Of a DNA stretch of 64,000 bases, positions 43,341 to 53,589 are shown piece after piece (position 1 is the first letter of the stretch; each line of letters begins with the position of its first letter). The notes under the pieces are model-generated. The model did not search any database. It was not told the DNA's origin and saw only the letters and a program-made list of their open reading frames with translations. The translations under genes were made by a program, and so were the position numbers. The stretch is from Adhaeribacter swui (GTDB taxonomy: Bacteria > Bacteroidota > Bacteroidia > Cytophagales > Hymenobacteraceae), in NCBI RefSeq assembly GCF_014217805.1, contig NZ_CP055156.1:5276585-5340584 (forward strand), in the 5' to 3' direction.

Positions 43341-44030
43341 TTGAAAGCTGCCAGGGCGCATACGGCTGTTTTGCTTTTTACCCGCACTTCTACCGAAGAA
43401 GCTCGGGCAAAAAAATTTACCCCGGGTACCCGCCGAAACAAAGCCATCATCCGGCAGCTTATTAATCGAACCAAGCTTCTCGTTCAGCAGGCCGGGCTGC
43501 CCTTAATCGTTATAGATTCTGCCAAACAAAAAGGAGAAACCTTTGGCGAACGCCTGCAGCACGCTGTTCAGCAAGTAGTTAATGCCGGTTACGAACAAGT
43601 TATTTGTTTAGGCAACGATTCGCCCGGGTTAACTCCCGGACTTATACGCTTAGCAGCCGCTAAATTGCAGCACCAGGATTTTGTTTTTGGCAGAGCAGCG
43701 GATGGCGGAGTTTACCTCATTGGTCTGCGTCAGCCAACCTTATCTAAACTTAATTTTGCTACCATACCCTGGCATACCGCTCAGGTTTTTCAGGAGTTGT
43801 GCCGGCAAACCAACTTATGCCGGGTAACCCTACTGGCTCCAATCCTGGCCGATGCGGACGACCAGGCAGCACTCCAAGGTATAAGTAACACCTTTACCAC
43901 GGTTCGTTTTTTTAAAATTTTGCGTTCCTTACTTCAATTAGTAAGAGCGTTTGTGCCAAGTTTTACTCCGTTGTTTGTTGCCGCCCGGCTAACCTGCCAG
44001 GGCTTACGGGCGCCCCCCAGGGGAATATAG
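43341..44030 (+). CDS. DUF2064 / TIGR04282-type transferase
   Basis: A 229-aa protein of the CofC-like nucleotidyl/glycosyl-transferase family, known as rSAM/selenodomain-associated transferase 1. Landmarks: VLLFTRTSTEEARAKKF at the N-terminus, GETFGERLQHAVQQVVNAGY (about 66-85), CLGNDSPGLTPGLI (about 91-104), FGRAADGGVYLIGL (about 115-128). The start is TTG; no in-frame ATG is near. The C-terminal 45 residues (about 185-229) extend beyond the domain and are basic/hydrophobic. The first gene of a tight unit, 43 bases before the TonB receptor gene. Confidence 0.85.
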   Translation: MKAARAHTAVLLFTRTSTEEARAKKFTPGTRRNKAIIRQLINRTKLLVQQAGLPLIVIDSAKQKGETFGERLQHAVQQVVNAGYEQVICLGNDSPGLTPGLIRLAAAKLQHQDFVFGRAADGGVYLIGLRQPTLSKLNFATIPWHTAQVFQELCRQTNLCRVTLLAPILADADDQAALQGISNTFTTVRFFKILRSLLQLVRAFVPSFTPLFVAARLTCQGLRAPPRGI

Positions 44031-44073
44031 CTTTCGGCTTTATTCCTTTGTTCAACTGATTTATTCTATCAAC

Positions 44074-47000
44074 GTGAGAAAACTATTACTCTTGTTCGGG
44101 TATTTTATACCCATGGCCGCTGCTTGGGCGCAGGGCGCGATTGAAGTTACCGTACTTAACCCTAAACTTGAACCCGTTTCGGGCGTACCCTTAACCATAA
44201 CCAGTGAAGCTATTAGCTTTAGTGCCACCCGGAGCACCAACAGCAAAGGTTCTGTTACCTTTTCGGGCCTCAGCACTGCTGGCACTTATATTATTCTTTT
44301 TGCCGAAAACGAAACTTACAGTGCTGTTTCATCGGAACCGGTAAGTCCGCGTTCTAACTTTAACCGCACTGTTACCCTGGTACTCCCCCTGAAGCAAGAA
44401 CGGGTTTTAGAAGGTGTTACGGTGTACCCTAACAATACCACCCGGATTAACCGGTACAATGCCGAGGTATCTTCAGAAATGCGCATTTCCGAAATTCGGG
44501 AGTTGCCCGTAGAAGGCCGGGATCTTTCGCGGATGCTGTTCCGTCTGCCCAATGTTACGCAAGCCACGGGCTTTTTCCCGGAAGCGCCGAATGTGAGTAT
44601 TAACGGGGCCAATCCTTTATTCAATAATTATTTAATTGATGGCCTCGATAACAACGAACAATTTTTGGGAGGCGCCCGCTTTAGTGTTCCGATTGGCTTT
44701 GTGCAAAACGTATCGGTACTTACTAACAACTACTCGGCAGAGTTCGGGAATACCGGTAACGGCATCATCAACGTAACGTCTAAATCCGGCAGCAACGAAC
44801 TGCAAGGCGAAGCCTTTTTCCTGACCCGGCCCGGTTTTCTGGATGCTTCTTCGCCTTACGCACAGCGGGACCTTTCGGGAAATCAAGTAAAAGATGGTTT
44901 TCAGCGGTACCAAGGGGGCTTTGGTGTGGGGGGCGCCATCGTTAAAGGAAAAACTTTTTATTACCTCAATTACGAGCACACCACTGATTTAAAAGATAAT
45001 ATTTTGAGCAGCCCGGCTCTGGGCGTGAATGAAACCATCCGGGGTAAGAACTACTTCAATTATCTTTCGGGCAAGTTAGATCATTATTGGAGTGACCGAT
45101 TTCACTCCACCCTCCGTGCCAACACGGGCATTGTGGGCATTGGTCGCCAGGCCGGTGGTTTAACCGGCGGTTTAAATTTCCCTTCCTCCGCCAGCGACCA
45201 GGTGCGTAATTCCCTGAATCTGGCTAGTACCAATGTGTATACTTCCGGAAATCTTACCTTAACGACCAATGTACAGTACGCGCGTTTTCGCTGGGATTAC
45301 GCTGCCCCGGATAATCCCAGCAGCCCGGATGTAACCGTAGCCGGACCAACCGGCGAAACCGTGGCCGTGCTGGGACACCCAGGTTATGCTTTTGAGAGTA
45401 TTCAACACACGATACAAGCCCAGCAAAAAGCTTCCTGGTCGGTGGGGAGCCATAGCTTTAAAGCCGGAGCCGAAATATTGAGTACGGATCATGCGCTTTT
45501 TGGCGGGGGTAACCCCAACGGTAGCTACCGGGTACAGCTCACCCAAGCGCAATTAGATAACCTACGAGCAGCCAACCGGGGATCTGCCTTAAGCGTGACC
45601 GATATACCTACGGATGCTTTGGTAACAAACTACTCCGTTGAGTTACGCCCCACGTATTTTGGCAAACGCCAGAATATTTTTAGCGCTTACCTGGAAGACC
45701 AGGTGCAGGCAACCGAGCGGTTGAATTTGAACTTGGGCCTTCGATACGACTACGATAATCTTTCTCGGGGCGGCAATGCCAAAGGAGACTTTAATAACCT
45801 GGCTCCCCGCGTAAGTTTTAATTACCAGCTTACACCCAACAGCACTATCCGGGGCGGCTTTGGCTTGTTCTACGACAAAATTTTGTACACCGTTTACAGT
45901 GATGCCTTGCAGCAGAACAACAATTCCCCCGATTTCAAACAACAAATTGCCTACTACGTGGCACAAGGAATTTTACCGACCGATACCGACGTAGACCGGG
46001 TTACTTTTAACGGCAATCTATCGGTTGGGCAAAGCAATAATGCTGGTTTACCTTTTGCTTACCTGCAAGGTCCGCCGGCCGAAAATTTTTCCGATCAACG
46101 GAATCTGTTTAGCAACGAACGACGAATCTTAAACCCGAATGGTTATGATAATCCTTTTACCCGGCAATTTTCTTTGGGTTACCAGTTGCAGGTAGCACCT
46201 AGCAAGCTCTTCTACGTGGATTTAGTATATAATCAAGGCCGTAATTTGTTCCGCACCGTTAATCTAAACGCGCCGGCCGCCTGGGACTACAACCGCAGCC
46301 AGCAAAGCGGTATTGCCCGCAGCAGTGCCTGGGCCGATTCTACCCGGACCCTACCCATCTACGGGAACTATGCGGTAATTAACGGGAACCGGTTGGATGG
46401 GGTCGCGCGCAGTTTGGTCATGACGGAGTCCGAAGGTAAAAGTAACTACTACGCCGCCAGTTTTAATTTGCAGAAAGATAAAGCAGATGATAAGTTTTCT
46501 TACCGTTTGATTTACACTTTATCTTACCTGGAGAACAATACCGAAGATATTAATTTCCGGGCCATGGATGCTAACAACTTCCAGGCCGAATGGGGACCGA
46601 GTATCAACGACCGGCGCCATGTGATCAATGGCATTTACAATTACTATCCGGTTTCCAACTTAACGTTAACATTGGCGGCTTTACTGCAAAGCGGCCAGCC
46701 CATCAACCGGATTCCGGATGCTTCCCAATATAAAGTAATAGATAGCCGCGGCAATATTCTGCTGAATGCGGGCGGAAACTACATTTTTACGAATGATTTA
46801 AACGGGGATGGATCCGCTTTTGGGGATGCTTACGTGGGTAACTCCGACCGGTACCCGGACGAAAAACGTAATTCTGACCGGCTGCCGTGGTCCAATACTT
46901 TTGATGCCAGCGTGCAGTATTTTGTACCTTTTAGAACCACGAGCAAAAAAGGATTGGAAATACGGGCGGATGTATTTAATTTGTTCAATGCCGAAAACCT

Positions 47001-47130
47001 GAGCGGCTACAGCAATAATGCTACGCAAAGCAACCAGATTCAGGTTGGGCCCGCGAGCAGTGGCCTATTAGTTCGCCGCAATGCCGCCCCTCCCCGCCAG
47101 GTTCAATTTGGTCTCCGGTACATTTTTTAA
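44074..47130 (+). CDS. TonB-dependent receptor, Oar-like
   Basis: A 1018-aa outer-membrane active transporter with signal peptide (MRKLLLLFGYFIPMAAAWAQ), starting at GTG. Residues about 21-110 form a carboxypeptidase-regulatory-like beta domain (VTVLNPKLEPVSGVPLTITS). The plug follows (about 125-240: SEIRELPVEGRDLSRMLFRL, VSINGANPLFNNYLIDGLDN, NYSAEFGNTGNGIINVTSKS). A long barrel ends in the strand RQVQFGLRYIF. The region just after the signal contains no obvious SusC signature and no SusD partner follows; an ABC importer does instead. Substrate unknown. Confidence 0.92.
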   Translation: MRKLLLLFGYFIPMAAAWAQGAIEVTVLNPKLEPVSGVPLTITSEAISFSATRSTNSKGSVTFSGLSTAGTYIILFAENETYSAVSSEPVSPRSNFNRTVTLVLPLKQERVLEGVTVYPNNTTRINRYNAEVSSEMRISEIRELPVEGRDLSRMLFRLPNVTQATGFFPEAPNVSINGANPLFNNYLIDGLDNNEQFLGGARFSVPIGFVQNVSVLTNNYSAEFGNTGNGIINVTSKSGSNELQGEAFFLTRPGFLDASSPYAQRDLSGNQVKDGFQRYQGGFGVGGAIVKGKTFYYLNYEHTTDLKDNILSSPALGVNETIRGKNYFNYLSGKLDHYWSDRFHSTLRANTGIVGIGRQAGGLTGGLNFPSSASDQVRNSLNLASTNVYTSGNLTLTTNVQYARFRWDYAAPDNPSSPDVTVAGPTGETVAVLGHPGYAFESIQHTIQAQQKASWSVGSHSFKAGAEILSTDHALFGGGNPNGSYRVQLTQAQLDNLRAANRGSALSVTDIPTDALVTNYSVELRPTYFGKRQNIFSAYLEDQVQATERLNLNLGLRYDYDNLSRGGNAKGDFNNLAPRVSFNYQLTPNSTIRGGFGLFYDKILYTVYSDALQQNNNSPDFKQQIAYYVAQGILPTDTDVDRVTFNGNLSVGQSNNAGLPFAYLQGPPAENFSDQRNLFSNERRILNPNGYDNPFTRQFSLGYQLQVAPSKLFYVDLVYNQGRNLFRTVNLNAPAAWDYNRSQQSGIARSSAWADSTRTLPIYGNYAVINGNRLDGVARSLVMTESEGKSNYYAASFNLQKDKADDKFSYRLIYTLSYLENNTEDINFRAMDANNFQAEWGPSINDRRHVINGIYNYYPVSNLTLTLAALLQSGQPINRIPDASQYKVIDSRGNILLNAGGNYIFTNDLNGDGSAFGDAYVGNSDRYPDEKRNSDRLPWSNTFDASVQYFVPFRTTSKKGLEIRADVFNLFNAENLSGYSNNATQSNQIQVGPASSGLLVRRNAAPPRQVQFGLRYIF

Positions 47131-47188
47131 AAATTCTGTTGCCTTTCACTTTCGTAGGAAAAGGCAACGAATAACTTACCTAAAGCGC

Positions 47189-48415
47189 ATGAAATTTAAA
47201 TACCTCACTACTTCTGCCCTGATTCTATCCTTACTTTTCAGCAGTTGCGGAAACAATAATGGTCAGCTGGAACAATTAGACCTAGCAGAGGCAAACTGGT
47301 TCAACATAGAACAAGCGGCTAAGGGCACTACCGTACAAATGATGATGTGGCAAGGCGATCCGCTCATTAATAAGTACATGGAGGATTATGTTAAACCAAA
47401 GCTACAGGAACAATACAACATTACGCTCGATATTTCATCCGGTCAGGGGAAAGACATTGTGGGGCTTGCCCTGGCTGAAAAAGAGACCGGAAAAAAAACG
47501 AGTGAAATCGACGTGATCTGGATAAACGGCGAAACCTTTTACCAACTACGGCAGCTCGATGCGCTTAACGGCCCATTTACTGAGCGGCTACCCAGCAATC
47601 AATTCGTGAACTGGCAAAGCCCGTTTATTGCCCGCGACTTTCAACAGCCCGTTAAAGGCATGGAAGCGCCTTGGGGAAATGTACAATTAGCTTTTATTTA
47701 CCATACTGCTAAAGTACCGCAACCACCTGCTTCCTTCAGCGCTTTAGAAACGTACATCCAAAATAATCCCGGCACCTTTACCATACCCAATGAGTTTACC
47801 GGCATGACTTTATTAAAATCTTGGCTGATTGCCTTGGCCGGAAAAGAAGAACTAGCCGGAAAGTTTGATGCCGCCAAATATACAAAGTACAGCCAACAAC
47901 TATGGCAAAAGCTGAACCGCCTTAAACCCTACTTCTGGAAACAAGGCCAGACTTTCCCGGCTTCGCTCGCGCAACTGCACCAGCTTTACGCCAACGGAGA
48001 AGTAAATTTTACTTTCAGTAACAACGATGCCGAGGTAGACAACAAAATTTTGCAAGGCGTGTTTCCGCCGGAGTCCCGGGCCTACGTTCCCGAGCCGGGT
48101 ACTATTCAAAACACGCATTACTTGGGCATTATGAAACAAGCCGGCAATTTGCCCGGCGCCTTAGTAGTCATCAATTTTCTGCAGTCGCCGGAGGCACAGT
48201 ACCAAAAAGCCAGTCCGGAAGTTTGGGGCGACGGTACCATCCTAAACGTATCGAAACTACCCGGAGAATGGAGACAAAAATTTAAAAATATTCCCGCCCG
48301 CCGGCAAGCCCCTGATCGCACTAAAATACAAGACCGGGCTTTCGAAGAACTGGCTCCCGAATACATGATCCGCTTGTATGATGATTTCAGAACAGAAGTA
48401 ATTGAGCATAACTAA
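47189..48415 (+). CDS. YnjB-like ABC substrate-binding lipoprotein
   Basis: A 408-aa lipoprotein starting MKFKYLTTSALILSLLFSSC, with the lipobox LFSSC; I use this ATG because longer starts add a non-signal stretch overlapping the receptor gene. The mature part resembles E. coli YnjB (COG4134): GTTVQMMMWQGDPLINKYM, EIDVIWINGETFYQLRQ, NGPFTERLPSNQF, then EAPWGNVQLAFIYHTAKVP. It would bind the substrate in the periplasm for the permease pair downstream. Substrate of YnjBCD systems is unknown. Overlaps the next gene by 14 bases. Confidence 0.85.
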   Translation: MKFKYLTTSALILSLLFSSCGNNNGQLEQLDLAEANWFNIEQAAKGTTVQMMMWQGDPLINKYMEDYVKPKLQEQYNITLDISSGQGKDIVGLALAEKETGKKTSEIDVIWINGETFYQLRQLDALNGPFTERLPSNQFVNWQSPFIARDFQQPVKGMEAPWGNVQLAFIYHTAKVPQPPASFSALETYIQNNPGTFTIPNEFTGMTLLKSWLIALAGKEELAGKFDAAKYTKYSQQLWQKLNRLKPYFWKQGQTFPASLAQLHQLYANGEVNFTFSNNDAEVDNKILQGVFPPESRAYVPEPGTIQNTHYLGIMKQAGNLPGALVVINFLQSPEAQYQKASPEVWGDGTILNVSKLPGEWRQKFKNIPARRQAPDRTKIQDRAFEELAPEYMIRLYDDFRTEVIEHN

Positions 48416-49256
48416 GAAAACAACTGGTTTTTACTGGCGCTTCTTGTTCTTGTTGCTGGCAGCGTTACCCGTGGCTGGAGGACTAATGTATGGCTTAGCC
48501 AACAGCTTCGGCTTAACCGGGGTGCTGGCCACTGGTTTTACCCTTGAACATTGGCGCCAGATATTAGGGAGCGGTGCTTTGCTGCATTCGTTGGCTTACA
48601 GTATATACATTGCTTTGGTGGCCATTAGTATCGCTACTGCTTTGGCCTTGTTTTTATCTTTATATTTTAAAAAAAGTCTGGACCAGGGTGCGCTTAGCTA
48701 CTTATTATTCCTGCCGTTAACCATTCCGGCCATGATTATGGGTTTCCTGGTATTCGAACTGCTTACTAAATCCGGATTACTTTCCCGGATAGCGTATCAA
48801 GCCGGTTGGATAGTAGACTTACAAGATTTCCCAAACCTGGTTCATGACTCCTTAGGCTTTGGGATTATTCTGGCGCATGTAGGCATGGCCGTACCTTTTT
48901 TAACTTTGTTATTTCACGTTATTTACCAGGAGCAGGATCTTCATAAACTAAAAGCAGTTTCCGAAAACCTGGGAGCCGGTAAATCTTATTTTCTGCAACA
49001 CGTAGCCTTGCCCATTCTTTTAAAAACGGCAGCTCCTAACTTGCTGCTTTATTTTATTTTTATTTTGGGTTCTTACGAAATCCCGCTGCTCATTGGTAGC
49101 CAGCAACACCAAATGGTAGCCGTATTGGCGGTACAAAAATTTCAGCGCTTTAACCTGCTCGATATTCCACAGGGTTATGCCATTAGTGTAGCTTTTACCG
49201 GCTTGGTGCTGCTCTTACTTTTACTTTTTTTTAAAAATGTACGCCGCCATGTTTAG
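48402..49256 (+). CDS. ABC transporter permease 1 (YnjC N-half-like)
   Basis: A 284-aa inner-membrane protein of the binding-protein-dependent permease family with about six helices and the EAA-type loop AVSENLGAGKSYFLQHVALP (about 185-204). Start is a TTG inside the end of the binding-protein gene. In E. coli the two permease halves are fused in YnjC (about 511 aa); here they are separate genes (284 + 257 aa). Confidence 0.88.
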   Translation: MSITKKTTGFYWRFLFLLLAALPVAGGLMYGLANSFGLTGVLATGFTLEHWRQILGSGALLHSLAYSIYIALVAISIATALALFLSLYFKKSLDQGALSYLLFLPLTIPAMIMGFLVFELLTKSGLLSRIAYQAGWIVDLQDFPNLVHDSLGFGIILAHVGMAVPFLTLLFHVIYQEQDLHKLKAVSENLGAGKSYFLQHVALPILLKTAAPNLLLYFIFILGSYEIPLLIGSQQHQMVAVLAVQKFQRFNLLDIPQGYAISVAFTGLVLLLLLLFFKNVRRHV

Positions 49257-50010
49257 GAAAATACTGCTGTCAACCCCCATGGCCGCCATTTTGCTGCCGT
49301 ACCTGTTTTTCGGAATGCTATCGCTGGGCCAAAGGTGGTTTTACCCGGATATCTTGCCGCAACATTTTACCCTGGACAACTGGCAGCAACTATTCGTAAA
49401 ACAAGGGGAACTCCAGATAGGGTTGTTTCTTTCGCTGATTTTAGGTTTGGGAGTTGCTTTTTTATCTACCCTGATGGGGTTTGTGGTTAGTAAGGAAATT
49501 TCGTGGGCCAAACATAAAAACCGATGGTTGCTGCTGGCTTACTGGCCCTTCGTGTTGGCTCCCGTGGTGCTAGCCATACTGGTACAACGTTTTTTTCTGT
49601 TAACCAACATGAGCGGCGAAGTAATCGGGGTATTATTGGGGCAGCTCATTCTGGCTTTTCCGTACGCGGTTATTTTATTTCAAAGCTTCTGGAATAATCA
49701 GGTACTACAACTCGAACAGCAATCTTTAACCTTGGGCGCTCCGGCGGGCTATACTTTACGGCACATCCTGCTGCCATTGGCCAAACCCCTCCTGCTTATG
49801 TGTTTTTTTCAAACATTTTTAATTTCCTGGTTTGAATATGGCTTAACGCAATTTATCGGTTTGGGAAAAGTTAAAACCCTTACCATATTGGTGTTTAAAT
49901 ACGTGAACGAAGCCAATATCTTCTATGCTGCTTTGGCTTCCTTGCTCATCATGCTGCCACCCGCCTTATTATTGTGGTTCAACAAAAAATTTATCTTTAG
50001 AGGAATTTAA
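49237..50010 (+). CDS. ABC transporter permease 2 (YnjC C-half-like)
   Basis: A 257-aa inner-membrane permease with about six helices and the EAA-type loop QQSLTLGAPAGYTLRHILLP (about 161-180). It overlaps permease 1 by 20 bases if the ATG at 49237 is used, or 8 bases from the ATG at 49249 (MFRKILL). Its stop overlaps the ATPase start as TAATG. The two permeases are likely to form a heterodimeric channel. Confidence 0.88.
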   Translation: MYAAMFRKILLSTPMAAILLPYLFFGMLSLGQRWFYPDILPQHFTLDNWQQLFVKQGELQIGLFLSLILGLGVAFLSTLMGFVVSKEISWAKHKNRWLLLAYWPFVLAPVVLAILVQRFFLLTNMSGEVIGVLLGQLILAFPYAVILFQSFWNNQVLQLEQQSLTLGAPAGYTLRHILLPLAKPLLLMCFFQTFLISWFEYGLTQFIGLGKVKTLTILVFKYVNEANIFYAALASLLIMLPPALLLWFNKKFIFRGI

Positions 50011-50738
50011 TGCTGCAAGTAAACAACTTAACTAAAACGTATGCGCACCACCCGGTGCTGGACCAGGTTTCGCTGGAGTTACCGCTGGGGCAGGTTCTAG
50101 CGGTGCTGGGTCGATCTGGTTGCGGTAAAACCACTTTGCTTAAAGTTATTGCGGGTTTGCTCCCGGCCGAAACGGGTATCGTTAGTTGGGCCGGACAAAA
50201 CATGGACGCCGTACCCGCCCGTAACCGGGAAATGGTTTACCTGTTCCAGGAACCGTTGTTGTTTCCGCACTTAACGGTTTTTGAGAACCTTGCCTATGGT
50301 TTGCGTGTTCGTAAAGAAACCGAAATTGCTGTGCAGCAAAAGGTATCGCGTATGTTGGAGGAATTAGAACTACAGGAACACGCCCGGAGAATGCCGCATC
50401 AGCTTTCCGGTGGTCAGCGCCAACGGGTTTCTTTTGGCCGGGCCATTATCTTTTTACCACGAGTATTATTATTGGATGAACCCTTTGGTAACCTGGATGC
50501 ACAGACGCGCGCGACCATGCAAACCTTTTTTTTACGGTTAGCTAAAAATTTTAAAATTACGGCTTTGTTTGTAACGCATGATGTAAAAGAAGCCTTGCTG
50601 GTTGGAGATCAGTATGCCTATATGGTGGCCGGCAAGTTTCAAATTTATGCTTCCAAAGCTGCTTTTATGGCTGATCCGGTAACGGGTGTCCGGGAAGAAC
50701 TTGCCTTTTGGCAGGCTCAGGAACAAAACATTATATAG
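50010..50738 (+). CDS. ABC transporter ATP-binding protein (YnjD-like)
   Basis: A 242-aa ATPase. Walker A GRSGCGKTT (about 33-41), Q-loop FQEPLLFPHLTV, signature LSGGQRQRVSFGRAI (about 131-145), Walker B VLLLDEPFGNLD, H-loop VTHD. No C-terminal regulatory domain such as TOBE is evident. It energises the two permeases upstream and is followed by the radical SAM gene after 5 bases. Confidence 0.93.
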   Translation: MLQVNNLTKTYAHHPVLDQVSLELPLGQVLAVLGRSGCGKTTLLKVIAGLLPAETGIVSWAGQNMDAVPARNREMVYLFQEPLLFPHLTVFENLAYGLRVRKETEIAVQQKVSRMLEELELQEHARRMPHQLSGGQRQRVSFGRAIIFLPRVLLLDEPFGNLDAQTRATMQTFFLRLAKNFKITALFVTHDVKEALLVGDQYAYMVAGKFQIYASKAAFMADPVTGVREELAFWQAQEQNII

Positions 50739-50743
50739 TAATC

Positions 50744-51697
50744 ATGACGCAAGACTTTAACCATATCGAATCGGTGTACTGGGTTTTTACTCAATTGTGC
50801 AACGACGAATGTGACCATTGCTACAACAACTCCGGACCCCGGGGCGAGCGCATTTCGGAAGAAGAATGCATGGCCATTATTCAAAATCTGCCGGACCACA
50901 TGGACCGGCTGATTCTTTCCGGCGGCGAGCCTTTGGCCGATAAAAAACTGCTTTACCAAATCCTAGATCGTTTACAGGAGCGTTACCAGGGGCGCGTGCA
51001 AATTATGCTGCAAACCAACGGCGACTTACTGAATGAACAAATCCTGGATACTTTACTCGAAAAAGGGGTTACCCGCTTCGACATAGCCAGTATTGACCGG
51101 TATCACAAACACGCTGGTAGCCGCCTGATAGAGTTGGCCGATATATTTGCCAGCCGTGGCGTAAATGGCGATGACCATGACCCACTCGTTAGCAAAGAAA
51201 CCTACCTTACTCACCATAAAGCTAGTTGGGGTTATTGGGGTGCCACCATTGATATGTGGTTAGGCGGAAACTGGGCGCGCGGCCGGGCTTTTCAAAAAGG
51301 TCTTTGGAAACAAGATCCAGATCATAATTTTTGTGCGATTCTTTCGGGTGGGAAAGGCTTTTTAACCGGCGCCCCGGATATCCCGCAGGAAATATCCATT
51401 CAGCTTTGGAAAATCAATCCTTGTTGCCCCGGCACCAAAGTTCCCCTGGGAGACGCCCGTACCGAAAAAGTATCAGATGTTTTGCAGCGAGTCTCTAAAT
51501 CTGAAATCTGGCAAAAGATAAATGAGGGAAACCCTTTAGCTATGGGAGAAAGTATCGGCATCACCGAGGCGCATGCCAAAGCACGTACCGCCGAACTAAA
51601 GAACATTTGCCTCTGGTGCGATGAGTTTTTTGAAAAACATTATAAAGGTGAACAGTTAAAACAAGCTTGCCATAGTTGCTCGATTGGAGAATCCTAA
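50744..51697 (+). CDS. Radical SAM enzyme with SPASM/twitch-like C-terminal cysteines
   Basis: A 317-aa cytosolic enzyme. The S-adenosylmethionine cluster motif is Cys19-x3-Cys23-x2-Cys26 (LCNDECDHCYNN), followed by LILSGGEPLAD (the GGE motif) and MLQTNGD. Further cysteines lie at 197, 227, 228, 289, 292, 309 and 312, including two C-x2-C pairs near the end (ICLWCDEF, ACHSCSI), as expected for auxiliary Fe-S ligands. I do not recognise the subfamily. I chose the ATG 5 bases after the ATPase stop; an upstream frame start would overlap it. Last gene of the unit. Confidence 0.88.
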   Translation: MTQDFNHIESVYWVFTQLCNDECDHCYNNSGPRGERISEEECMAIIQNLPDHMDRLILSGGEPLADKKLLYQILDRLQERYQGRVQIMLQTNGDLLNEQILDTLLEKGVTRFDIASIDRYHKHAGSRLIELADIFASRGVNGDDHDPLVSKETYLTHHKASWGYWGATIDMWLGGNWARGRAFQKGLWKQDPDHNFCAILSGGKGFLTGAPDIPQEISIQLWKINPCCPGTKVPLGDARTEKVSDVLQRVSKSEIWQKINEGNPLAMGESIGITEAHAKARTAELKNICLWCDEFFEKHYKGEQLKQACHSCSIGES

Positions 51698-52053: not shown

Positions 52054-53589
52054 TTATTTATCGGCGGCAACGTGGTAGATGGGATCTTCTAAAATATTTA
52101 CGTCTATTACCGATTCCGCATTTTTTAATAACAAACGACAATCTTCGCTTAAATGCCGGAGATGTAGTTTTTTACCTACCTGGTGGTAACGCTCTGTCAG
52201 TTTGTTCAGGGCTTCAATGCCCGACATATCGGCTACCCGACAATCCTTAAAGTCAACAATTACTTCTTTCGGGTCAGTAGCAATCTCAAACTTTTCGTTA
52301 AAAGCGGTAACCGAACCAAAGAAAAGTGGCCCGTAAATTTCGTAGTGCTTCACCCCATTACCATCTACAAATTTTCTGGCCCGGATTCGCTTGGCGCTAT
52401 CCCAGGCAAACACCAGCGCCGAAATAATGACACCTATCAAAACCGCGAGGGCTAAATTATGCAGCCAAATTGTAATGGCAGCCACCAATATTCCTACAAA
52501 TACATCCTGTTGGGGCATTTTATTAATAATACGCAGGCTCATCCATTCGAAGGTACCTATGGCCACCATAATCATTACCCCGGTTAAGGCCGCCATTGGA
52601 ACTCTTTCTATTACAGGGGCGCCAATAAGAATAATTACCAAGATGGTAAGAGCCGCTATAATCCCCGACAGCCGCGCTCTGGCTCCGGCCGATAGGTTTA
52701 CTAAGGTTTGCGCAATCATGGGGCAGCCACCCATTCCGTAAAAAAATCCATTTAAAATATTGGCACCTCCCTGGGCCAAACATTCCCGGTTACTGTTGCC
52801 GCGGCTGGTAGTAATTTCGTCAACCAGGTTTAAAGTCAGCAAGCCTTCGGTTAAACCTACCCCGGCCATTATGAGGGCGTAAGGAAAAATTACGTTCAGG
52901 GTATCCAACGACAAAGGCACCTGGGGTATATGAAAAGGGGGAAACCCACCGCTTACCGAGGCGATATCTTTTACCGTTCGGGTATCAATATCGAAACCCA
53001 ATACCAACAAAAACACCACGATAATAGCGGCTAAAGACGACGGAACGGCTTTGGTGATTCGCGGGAAAAAGATAACGATAGCAATGGTTAAAGCAACTAA
53101 ACCGGCCATTATGAGCAACGGTTGACCACTCATCCAGGTTAAATGGCCGTTAACAACCGTTTTAAATTGCTGTAGCTGGGCCATAAAAATAATAACGGCC
53201 AAACCATTAACAAACCCGAACATAACGGGTTGCGGTACCAGACGAATAAATTTACCCAGCTTAAATATTCCCACCAAGATTTGAATTACCCCGGCCAATG
53301 CCACCGCGGCAAAAACGTATTCGATGCCATGCGATTGCATGAGCGCAATTAATACCACCGCCGTAGCTCCGGCCCCTCCCGATATTAAGCCCGGCCTTCC
53401 GCCAAAAACAGCGGTTATTAAACCCATAATAAATGCGGCATGTAATCCAACTAAGGGCGGGAACCCGGCCAGGATAGCAAAAGACAACGACTCGGGCATC
53501 ATGGTCATGGCCACCGTTAAACCTGCCAGAATTTCGTTTTTGTAATTAATTTTTTGAGAAAAGTCAAACAACCGGAAAAAAGGCTTCAT
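52054..53589 (-). CDS. SulP family inorganic anion transporter with STAS domain
   Basis: A 511-aa inner-membrane protein importing sulfate, bicarbonate or a similar anion. The SulP core begins KNEILAGLTVAMTMMPESLSFAILAG (about 17-42) with the PESLSFA variant of the family motif, continues with AAFIMGLITAVFGGRPGLISG and NFYGMGGCPMIAQT-like segments, and spans about 10-12 helices. The C-terminal STAS domain lies at about 405-505 (VIVDFKDCRVADMSGIEALN). No carbonic anhydrase gene adjoins, so the anion is uncertain. Confidence 0.93.
   Translation of the reverse strand: MKPFFRLFDFSQKINYKNEILAGLTVAMTMMPESLSFAILAGFPPLVGLHAAFIMGLITAVFGGRPGLISGGAGATAVVLIALMQSHGIEYVFAAVALAGVIQILVGIFKLGKFIRLVPQPVMFGFVNGLAVIIFMAQLQQFKTVVNGHLTWMSGQPLLIMAGLVALTIAIVIFFPRITKAVPSSLAAIIVVFLLVLGFDIDTRTVKDIASVSGGFPPFHIPQVPLSLDTLNVIFPYALIMAGVGLTEGLLTLNLVDEITTSRGNSNRECLAQGGANILNGFFYGMGGCPMIAQTLVNLSAGARARLSGIIAALTILVIILIGAPVIERVPMAALTGVMIMVAIGTFEWMSLRIINKMPQQDVFVGILVAAITIWLHNLALAVLIGVIISALVFAWDSAKRIRARKFVDGNGVKHYEIYGPLFFGSVTAFNEKFEIATDPKEVIVDFKDCRVADMSGIEALNKLTERYHQVGKKLHLRHLSEDCRLLLKNAESVIDVNILEDPIYHVAADK

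Follow-up and report, generated by a model that had tools for sequence, protein, structure and literature searches.

The window analysed here is a 64,000-nucleotide stretch of the Adhaeribacter swui genome (contig NZ_CP055156.1, positions 5,276,585 to 5,340,584 of the forward strand), in which seven collinear genes encode a DUF2064 protein, a TonB-dependent receptor, a YnjBCD-like ATP-binding cassette (ABC) importer and a radical S-adenosylmethionine (SAM) enzyme. This unit is a real, co-inherited import-and-processing operon: its synteny is conserved among relatives, its proteins diverge in parallel, and the processing enzymes behind one clade of the transporter are replaced by others. The ligand that the operon imports and processes may be a ribonucleoside or riboside, most likely one whose 5' position is modified, as in methylthioadenosine, 5'-deoxyadenosine or an arsenosugar. 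To this reading we give about an even chance; we infer the substrate class, the direction of transport and every chemical step. The genes are as follows.

43341..44030, + strand: divergent DUF2064 protein (CofC/GT-A-like), 229 amino acids, TTG start
44074..47130, + strand: TonB-dependent outer-membrane receptor, Oar-like, with plug, 1018 amino acids
47189..48415 (from ATG; longest open reading frame (ORF) from 47081), + strand: YnjB-like substrate-binding protein with lipobox-type Cys20, 408 amino acids
48402..49256, + strand: ABC permease 1 (PF00528, 29.3 bits, cut-off 26.4)
49237..50010, + strand: ABC permease 2 (PF00528, 32.7 bits)
50010..50738, + strand: ABC transporter ATPase, YnjD-like by position (PF00005, 122 bits)
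50744..51697 (from ATG; longest ORF from 50708), + strand: radical SAM enzyme, 317 amino acids from ATG

The junctions are, in order, a 43-base gap, a 58-base gap, a 14-base overlap, a 20-base overlap (between the longest ORFs), a TAATG and a 5-base gap; the ORF coordinates agree with the collinear order, gaps and overlaps described in the original prediction. The case for co-transcription is made from spacing and synteny, because promoter-like sites across the region (13, against a mean of 14.5 in shuffled sequences) are at chance level.

A scan with the radical SAM protein, using one genome per species, gave 94 relatives, of which 80 loci were kept (loci carry the prefix L and sampled genomes the prefix G), and the ORFs of these loci were searched with profiles of the seven window proteins. 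Regarding the 60 evaluable loci, those whose sequence extends 9 kb or more upstream of the radical SAM gene, all seven genes were on the same strand in 47; counted singly, the same-strand partners were DUF2064 (49), the receptor (52), YnjB (54), each permease (54) and the ATPase (55). The proposal made from the window, a dedicated system in which uptake across the outer membrane and ABC import are coupled to cytosolic enzymes, is well supported, and the radical SAM gene and the receptor are not consistently apart. The nearest relatives were from Pontibacter (85-88% identity), and the record titles extended to Bacteroidota, Chlorobiota, Ignavibacteria, Kapaibacterium, Salinibacteraceae, Chthoniobacterales, Acanthopleuribacter and others, these names being record labels as deposited, many of them for metagenome bins. 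Pairwise distances among the radical SAM, receptor, YnjB, YnjD and DUF2064 proteins were correlated (r 0.80-0.92, a value that includes host relatedness), and none of 500 permutations reached as high.

The same association was found in a sample of 296 genomes of the phylum drawn irrespective of the operon, in which the radical SAM gene occurred in 7, YnjB in 16 and both in 6 (Fisher p 6e-8); one of these six is the window's own genome, and G045, G275 and G283 probably duplicate the records from which L029, L047 and L051 come. The seventh genome with the radical SAM gene (G268) has it together with DUF2064 and the receptor (L098), with no importer in that stretch and no YnjB match. In G239 the radical SAM gene and YnjB are adjacent and both divergent, YnjB falling outside the main clade, and in G276 the two genes lie on separate short contigs. 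The radical SAM gene of G276 (L099:2128-5263) adjoins another radical SAM gene, an over-cut-off TIGR04283 glycosyltransferase and, as judged by eye, a DUF547-like gene.

Neighbourhoods were fetched for the 10 sampled genomes that have YnjB and no radical SAM gene (L131-L140). Directly after the ATPase or within about 1.5 kb, L131-L134 have a nucleoside hydrolase and L135, L136, L138, L139 and L140 a PNP-superfamily phosphorylase, which makes nine of the ten; a gene resembling methylthioribose (MTR) kinase was seen in six (L131, L132, L133, L135, L138, L140), and the DUF2064 variant was also present in five (L131-L134, L140). Family scans, which covered a subset of the replacing enzymes, placed the L131 hydrolase in IU_nuc_hydro (112 bits, cut-off 34.2) and the L135 and L140 phosphorylases in PNP_UDP_1 (89 and 77 bits, cut-off 25.1); the L134 hydrolase was nearest RihC (78 bits, cut-off 382) and the L138 kinase matched APH (65, Pfam scan alone). 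The L138 and L139 phosphorylases were recognised via weak phmmer matches (20-29 bits), and resemblance alone was the basis for assigning the hydrolases of L132 and L133 and the kinase of L133. Both kinds of enzyme meet in two hybrid loci: L074 (Pedobacter) has kinase, hydrolase, DUF547, receptor, YnjBCD importer, radical SAM gene and both of the accessory GAT genes described below, and in L072 radical SAM, DUF2064 and SusC-like genes are joined by a kinase fragment where the contig ends (114 bits to the L131 kinase by phmmer, no Pfam or NCBIfam match).

A midpoint-rooted YnjB tree of 52 rows (31 of the 63 radical SAM-linked rows and all others) placed the radical SAM-, hydrolase- and MTAP-linked rows, except G239, on one branch (support 100/99). 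The window YnjB belongs to this branch of 41 rows, which is separate from E. coli YnjB and other YnjBs. The radical SAM label changes at least five times on the tree, three of the changes being forced by well supported branches, and the four hydrolase rows form one branch beside Pedobacter radical SAM rows (100/99). Since the types are interleaved, the transporter is the stable part and the processing enzymes the exchanged part, and this exchange behind one stable transporter is the main reason why a nucleoside or riboside ligand is predicted. The unit is also more modular than originally described, the radical SAM gene being replaceable by nucleoside-processing genes.

Several observations weigh against this reading. 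Thirteen of the 60 evaluable loci lack one or more of the genes on the same strand (L014, L043, L045, L047, L049, L060, L061, L062, L063, L066, L071, L074, L080), and in five of these (L045, L061, L062, L066, L071) at least DUF2064, receptor, YnjB and permeases are all missing from that strand; in L062 the opposite strand bears receptor, YnjB and permeases, in L074 the available sequence starts within the receptor ORF so that the DUF2064 position is out of view, and in L080 another ORF resembles a TonB receptor by eye. Among the loci free of the radical SAM gene, L137 (a 7.8 kb contig) shows neither hydrolase nor phosphorylase, and no kinase was seen in four (L134, L136, L137 and L139, the last ending at a contig edge). 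The phosphorylases of L135, L136 and L140 were nearest MTAP at 85-107, and the kinases of L131, L132, L135 and L140 nearest MTRK at 74-118, all below the respective cut-offs of 275. Among the 80 radical SAM loci a kinase occurs in two (L072, L074) and a hydrolase in one (L074), and strict PNP genes lie near the unit just in L007, L050 and L056, one lineage aside. In that lineage (L066-L071) the PNP gene was rejected as a linked gene, as it is confined to a single lineage, lies about 3.6 kb or more off with other genes between, and is considered incidental. Searches of the window genome for the kinase and for GATb, each made without a positive control, gave no match. The predicted YnjB fold, too, scores glycoside- and polyamine-binding proteins about equally, and fold alone picks no ligand.

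The YnjB-like protein belongs to its family over the whole protein (NF008633/PRK11622, 374 bits, cut-off 203), and its Cys20 was invariant across the 22 rows of the YnjB alignment. Its AlphaFold2 (AF2) model (predicted local distance difference test score, pLDDT, 91) found its best structural matches among glycoside-binding proteins (Z 28.6, root-mean-square deviation (rmsd) 2.9, 333 aligned), closely followed by sulfoquinovosyl-glycerol-, glycerophosphocholine- and polyamine-binding proteins. The receptor matches plug and beta-barrel families (PF07715 32.6 bits, cut-off 23.9; PF25183 190 bits; PF00593 41.3 bits), the barrel being of the OMP_b-brl_4 / TonB_dep_Rec type, and CarboxypepD_reg matches its N-terminus below the cut-off of that family.

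The radical SAM enzyme is a member of its superfamily (PF04055 54.5 bits, cut-off 29.5) and carries a CX3CX2C motif (C19/C23/C26) that is kept in 79 of the 79 rows with letters at those columns. Outside this motif all of the 81 rows share C42, C197, C227, C228, C289 and C292, a pattern from which an auxiliary cluster, and perhaps also a hydrogen-donating cysteine, may be predicted. Matches were obtained to 43 NCBIfam families, the best 25 of the 43 all being below cut-off; the top-scoring named family was NirJ1 (TIGR04054, 43.8 bits, cut-off 650), of which the enzyme is not a member, and ArsS (TIGR04167) likewise fell short (24.7 bits, cut-off 300). The AF2 model (pLDDT 85) aligned best with EpeE (Z 17.9, rmsd 3.8, 258 aligned), BtrN (Z 16.0, rmsd 3.5, 219 aligned) and viperin-like enzymes (Z 14.7). 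The enzyme resembles BtrN and EpeE in predicted fold and in extra C-terminal cysteines, whereas identity in those alignments is only 17-18%. BtrN and viperin act on sugar-like or nucleotide substrates. Selenocysteine was considered and rejected, the in-frame TGA of G045 being an ordinary stop. A search of plasmids for relatives gave six records, all of them core-domain matches to other families. In a Haliscomenobacter-type lineage (L066-L071) the radical SAM gene, with no importer in the available sequence, directly follows a gene that looks like a glycoside hydrolase.

Regarding the DUF2064 protein, family membership is clear (PF09837 83 bits, gathering cut-off 25.8), and its earlier assignment to TIGR04282 was not upheld: the score is below cut-off (93 against 134 bits) and AKKF stands in place of the N-terminal K[TS]RL motif. 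In an alignment of five canonical proteins and nine variants (the window protein and eight others) this motif was found in 5/5 canonical and 0/9 variant rows, and the LRAPP end of the window protein recurs as an LR[AG]PP tail in seven of the nine variants. On these sequence features the window protein is a divergent subfamily member outside TIGR04282. No paper on DUF2064 was found in the literature searched, which misses most subscription journals. About 170 kb upstream of the operon in the window genome (L086:8938-10096) a rhodanese-like gene, recognised by eye, overlaps a canonical-looking DUF2064 gene, which exceeds the PF09837 cut-off; ArsS has no over-cut-off match in that genome.

Two adjacent small genes, GATa and GATb, accompany the unit in 30 of the 80 loci. 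In many Hymenobacter loci, L017, L028 and L036 being exceptions, the pair sits between permease 2 and the ATPase. In L039 and L040 it separates receptor and YnjB, and other loci have it next to or behind the ATPase or radical SAM gene; in G276 a GATb-like gene lies between YnjB and the permease. The two are mutually related (E 3e-8). GATa is weakly ThuA-like (two of its 12 members matched, with E 0.01 at best and under the cut-off), no Pfam family matches more than one of 14 GATb members, and searches of solved structures with either gave chance-level matches only. Next to the operon, a SulP-like transporter gene (by eye) at 52054-53589 on the - strand is convergent with it, and ORFs of similar look occupy the same position in Hymenobacter loci L015, L018, L019, L024 and L065.

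The proposed route would begin with passage of the ligand across the outer membrane via the TonB-dependent receptor, followed by capture by the lipid-anchored YnjB-like protein and transfer into the cytosol by the YnjC1/C2/D importer. Release of the ribose and its phosphorylation would next fall, in related genomes, to a nucleoside hydrolase or MTAP-like phosphorylase, often accompanied by an MTR-kinase-like kinase. In the window type the radical SAM enzyme takes the place of the hydrolase or phosphorylase and probably modifies the sugar ring by hydrogen abstraction (dehydrogenation or epimerisation), and GATa and GATb, where present, may complete the opening of the ribosidic bond alongside it. 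The DUF2064 protein, which is present with both routes, may act after them, perhaps on a sugar phosphate; both it and the radical SAM enzyme would act on the imported compound. A fuller version holds that radical oxidation of the ribose ring is what opens the imported ribosides (by the radical SAM enzyme, often with the ThuA-like pair, swapped for hydrolase or phosphorylase plus kinase) and that the natural ligands include environmental organoarsenic ribosides; in this complete form we consider it improbable.

The first alternative, plausible though rather unlikely, is that the substrate is specifically an organoarsenic riboside (an arsenosugar or a 5'-deoxy-5'-dimethylarsinoyl nucleoside) that the operon salvages or detoxifies. 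Radical SAM enzymes have been tied to carbon-arsenic (C-As) bond formation in arsenosugars and arsinothricin (PMC12159101, PMC8552651). Arsenic-family genes occur in 8 of the 80 loci. In L017 a divergent ars operon starts with an ArsR-type regulator (61, cut-off 55), the longest ORFs being separated by about 56 bases, and continues with ArsI C-As lyase (140, cut-off 116), an ArsN1a-like gene (138, cut-off 170) and ACR3, the last a fragment because the locus ends within it (114, cut-off 283). In L050 the unit is preceded by ArsS (436, cut-off 300) and followed by rhodanese, TIGR04282 (216), PNP and ArsM (576, cut-off 400), and this flanking arsenosugar cluster also has DUF547 and TIGR04283-like genes. 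ArsS is further present in L053 (422) and L055 (419), which are, however, closely related to each other. TIGR04282 (196) is found in L058 along with an ArsR-like gene and a pair of ArsM-like genes, one of which exceeds the cut-off. The single ArsM-like gene of L033 scores below cut-off, L056 has a fragment resembling TIGR04282 as well as PNP (phmmer alone), and L079 has TIGR04283 (226, cut-off 182); outside the 80, the radical SAM gene of L099 lies with TIGR04283 and a DUF547-like gene. Within 50 loci, ArsS was seen twice against 0.08 expected by chance (p 0.003).

Against this, the available sequence of 72 of the 80 loci held no arsenic-family gene by the queries used, and ArsN1a, the ACR3 fragment and two of the three generic ArsM-like matches were below cut-off. 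ArsS was present in 20 of the 50 host genomes (selected from the 80 loci, chiefly those with long contigs), which equals the base rate of 120 in the 296 sampled genomes, so that ArsS was rejected as an obligatory partner and an organoarsenic substrate stays a sub-hypothesis of the riboside proposal. The window genome has no ArsS over cut-off, and ArsS was found in 0 of the 7 radical SAM genomes and 0 of the 16 YnjB genomes of the sample (p 2e-4 for depletion). Mutual exclusion of YnjB and ArsS is not claimed from the 0/16 figure, as the 20 genomes just mentioned stand behind radical SAM loci and have ArsS.

In favour of the organoarsenic alternative, YnjBCD loci outside the clade and ArsS loci have in common TVP38, flavin adenine dinucleotide (FAD) oxidoreductase, DUF547, AhpD-like and sterol desaturase genes. 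In the plasmid regions viewed (9 of 82 YnjB records and 4 of 51 ArsS records), and in E. coli, YnjBCD frequently neighbours TVP38/DedA, FAD oxidoreductase, rhodanese, AhpD-like, DUF547 and cytidine diphosphate (CDP)-alcohol phosphatidyltransferase genes, the Sinorhizobium region excepted, and several of these neighbours also adjoin ArsS in its four regions. A TVP38/FAD-oxidoreductase fusion gene stands by YnjBCD on a Klebsiella plasmid (L110:3692-10991) and by ArsS on an Acinetobacter plasmid (L113:8935-11876), which links the YnjBCD and arsenosugar neighbourhoods.

Unlikely as well is the salvage of ordinary methylthioadenosine, methylthioribose or 5'-deoxyadenosine for carbon and sulfur. These are common metabolites, and MTAP-like phosphorylase and MTRK-like kinase are the nearest named families of the scanned replacing enzymes, but every scanned enzyme falls far short of the cut-off for MTAP or MTRK, inspection of the neighbours by eye (no dedicated search being made) revealed no mtnA-type isomerase or aldolase, and the DUF2064 and ThuA-like genes are left unexplained. 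Scavenging of an unrelated nutrient (a chelated metal, a phosphonate or a sulfur compound), with the nucleoside genes as chance neighbours, is doubtful: permease and ATPase resemble 2-aminoethylphosphonate (AEP), molybdate, sulfate and polyamine importers at family level and the SulP-like anion transporter gene (52054-53589) adjoins the unit, whereas nucleoside enzymes have repeatedly come in as replacements after YnjD, in phylogenetically scattered loci.

Returning to the import and processing of a riboside, the closest known systems, besides the BtrN and EpeE enzymes, are the following. The E. coli ydjXYZ-ynjABCDE region shares the YnjB family by NF008633 (E. coli scoring over the cut-off as control) and the order binding protein, permease, ATPase; it differs in having a single permease gene, in lacking TonB receptor, DUF2064 and radical SAM genes over the stretch viewed, and in having DedA-family, AhpD-like, sulfurtransferase and CDP-alcohol phosphatidyltransferase genes as neighbours, and its YnjB branches apart from the window YnjB. 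Arsenosugar clusters (ArsS/ArsM, TIGR04282, TIGR04283, PNP, DUF547) are alike in combining a radical SAM enzyme, a DUF2064-family protein and nucleoside-processing genes, and at times adjoin the unit physically (L050, L053, L055), whereas the window enzyme is not ArsS (24.7 against 300 bits), the window DUF2064 protein is not TIGR04282, and no YnjBCD importer was seen in the four plasmid ArsS regions. The ribose/nucleoside utilisation operon (RUS) of Bacteroides couples outer-membrane import to a nucleoside hydrolase and a kinase; the present unit differs from it by the YnjBCD ABC importer and, in the window type, by a radical SAM enzyme for hydrolase and kinase.

What is new is the substrate class proposed for the YnjBCD clade. 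Even in E. coli K-12 this importer has no annotation beyond 'putative', and the substrate class now predicted for the clade could be tested with a single binding assay. If the radical SAM enzyme does replace nucleoside cleavage, it would represent a new way of riboside breakdown, and if the ligand is organoarsenic, bacteria would have in this operon an uptake route dedicated to such compounds.

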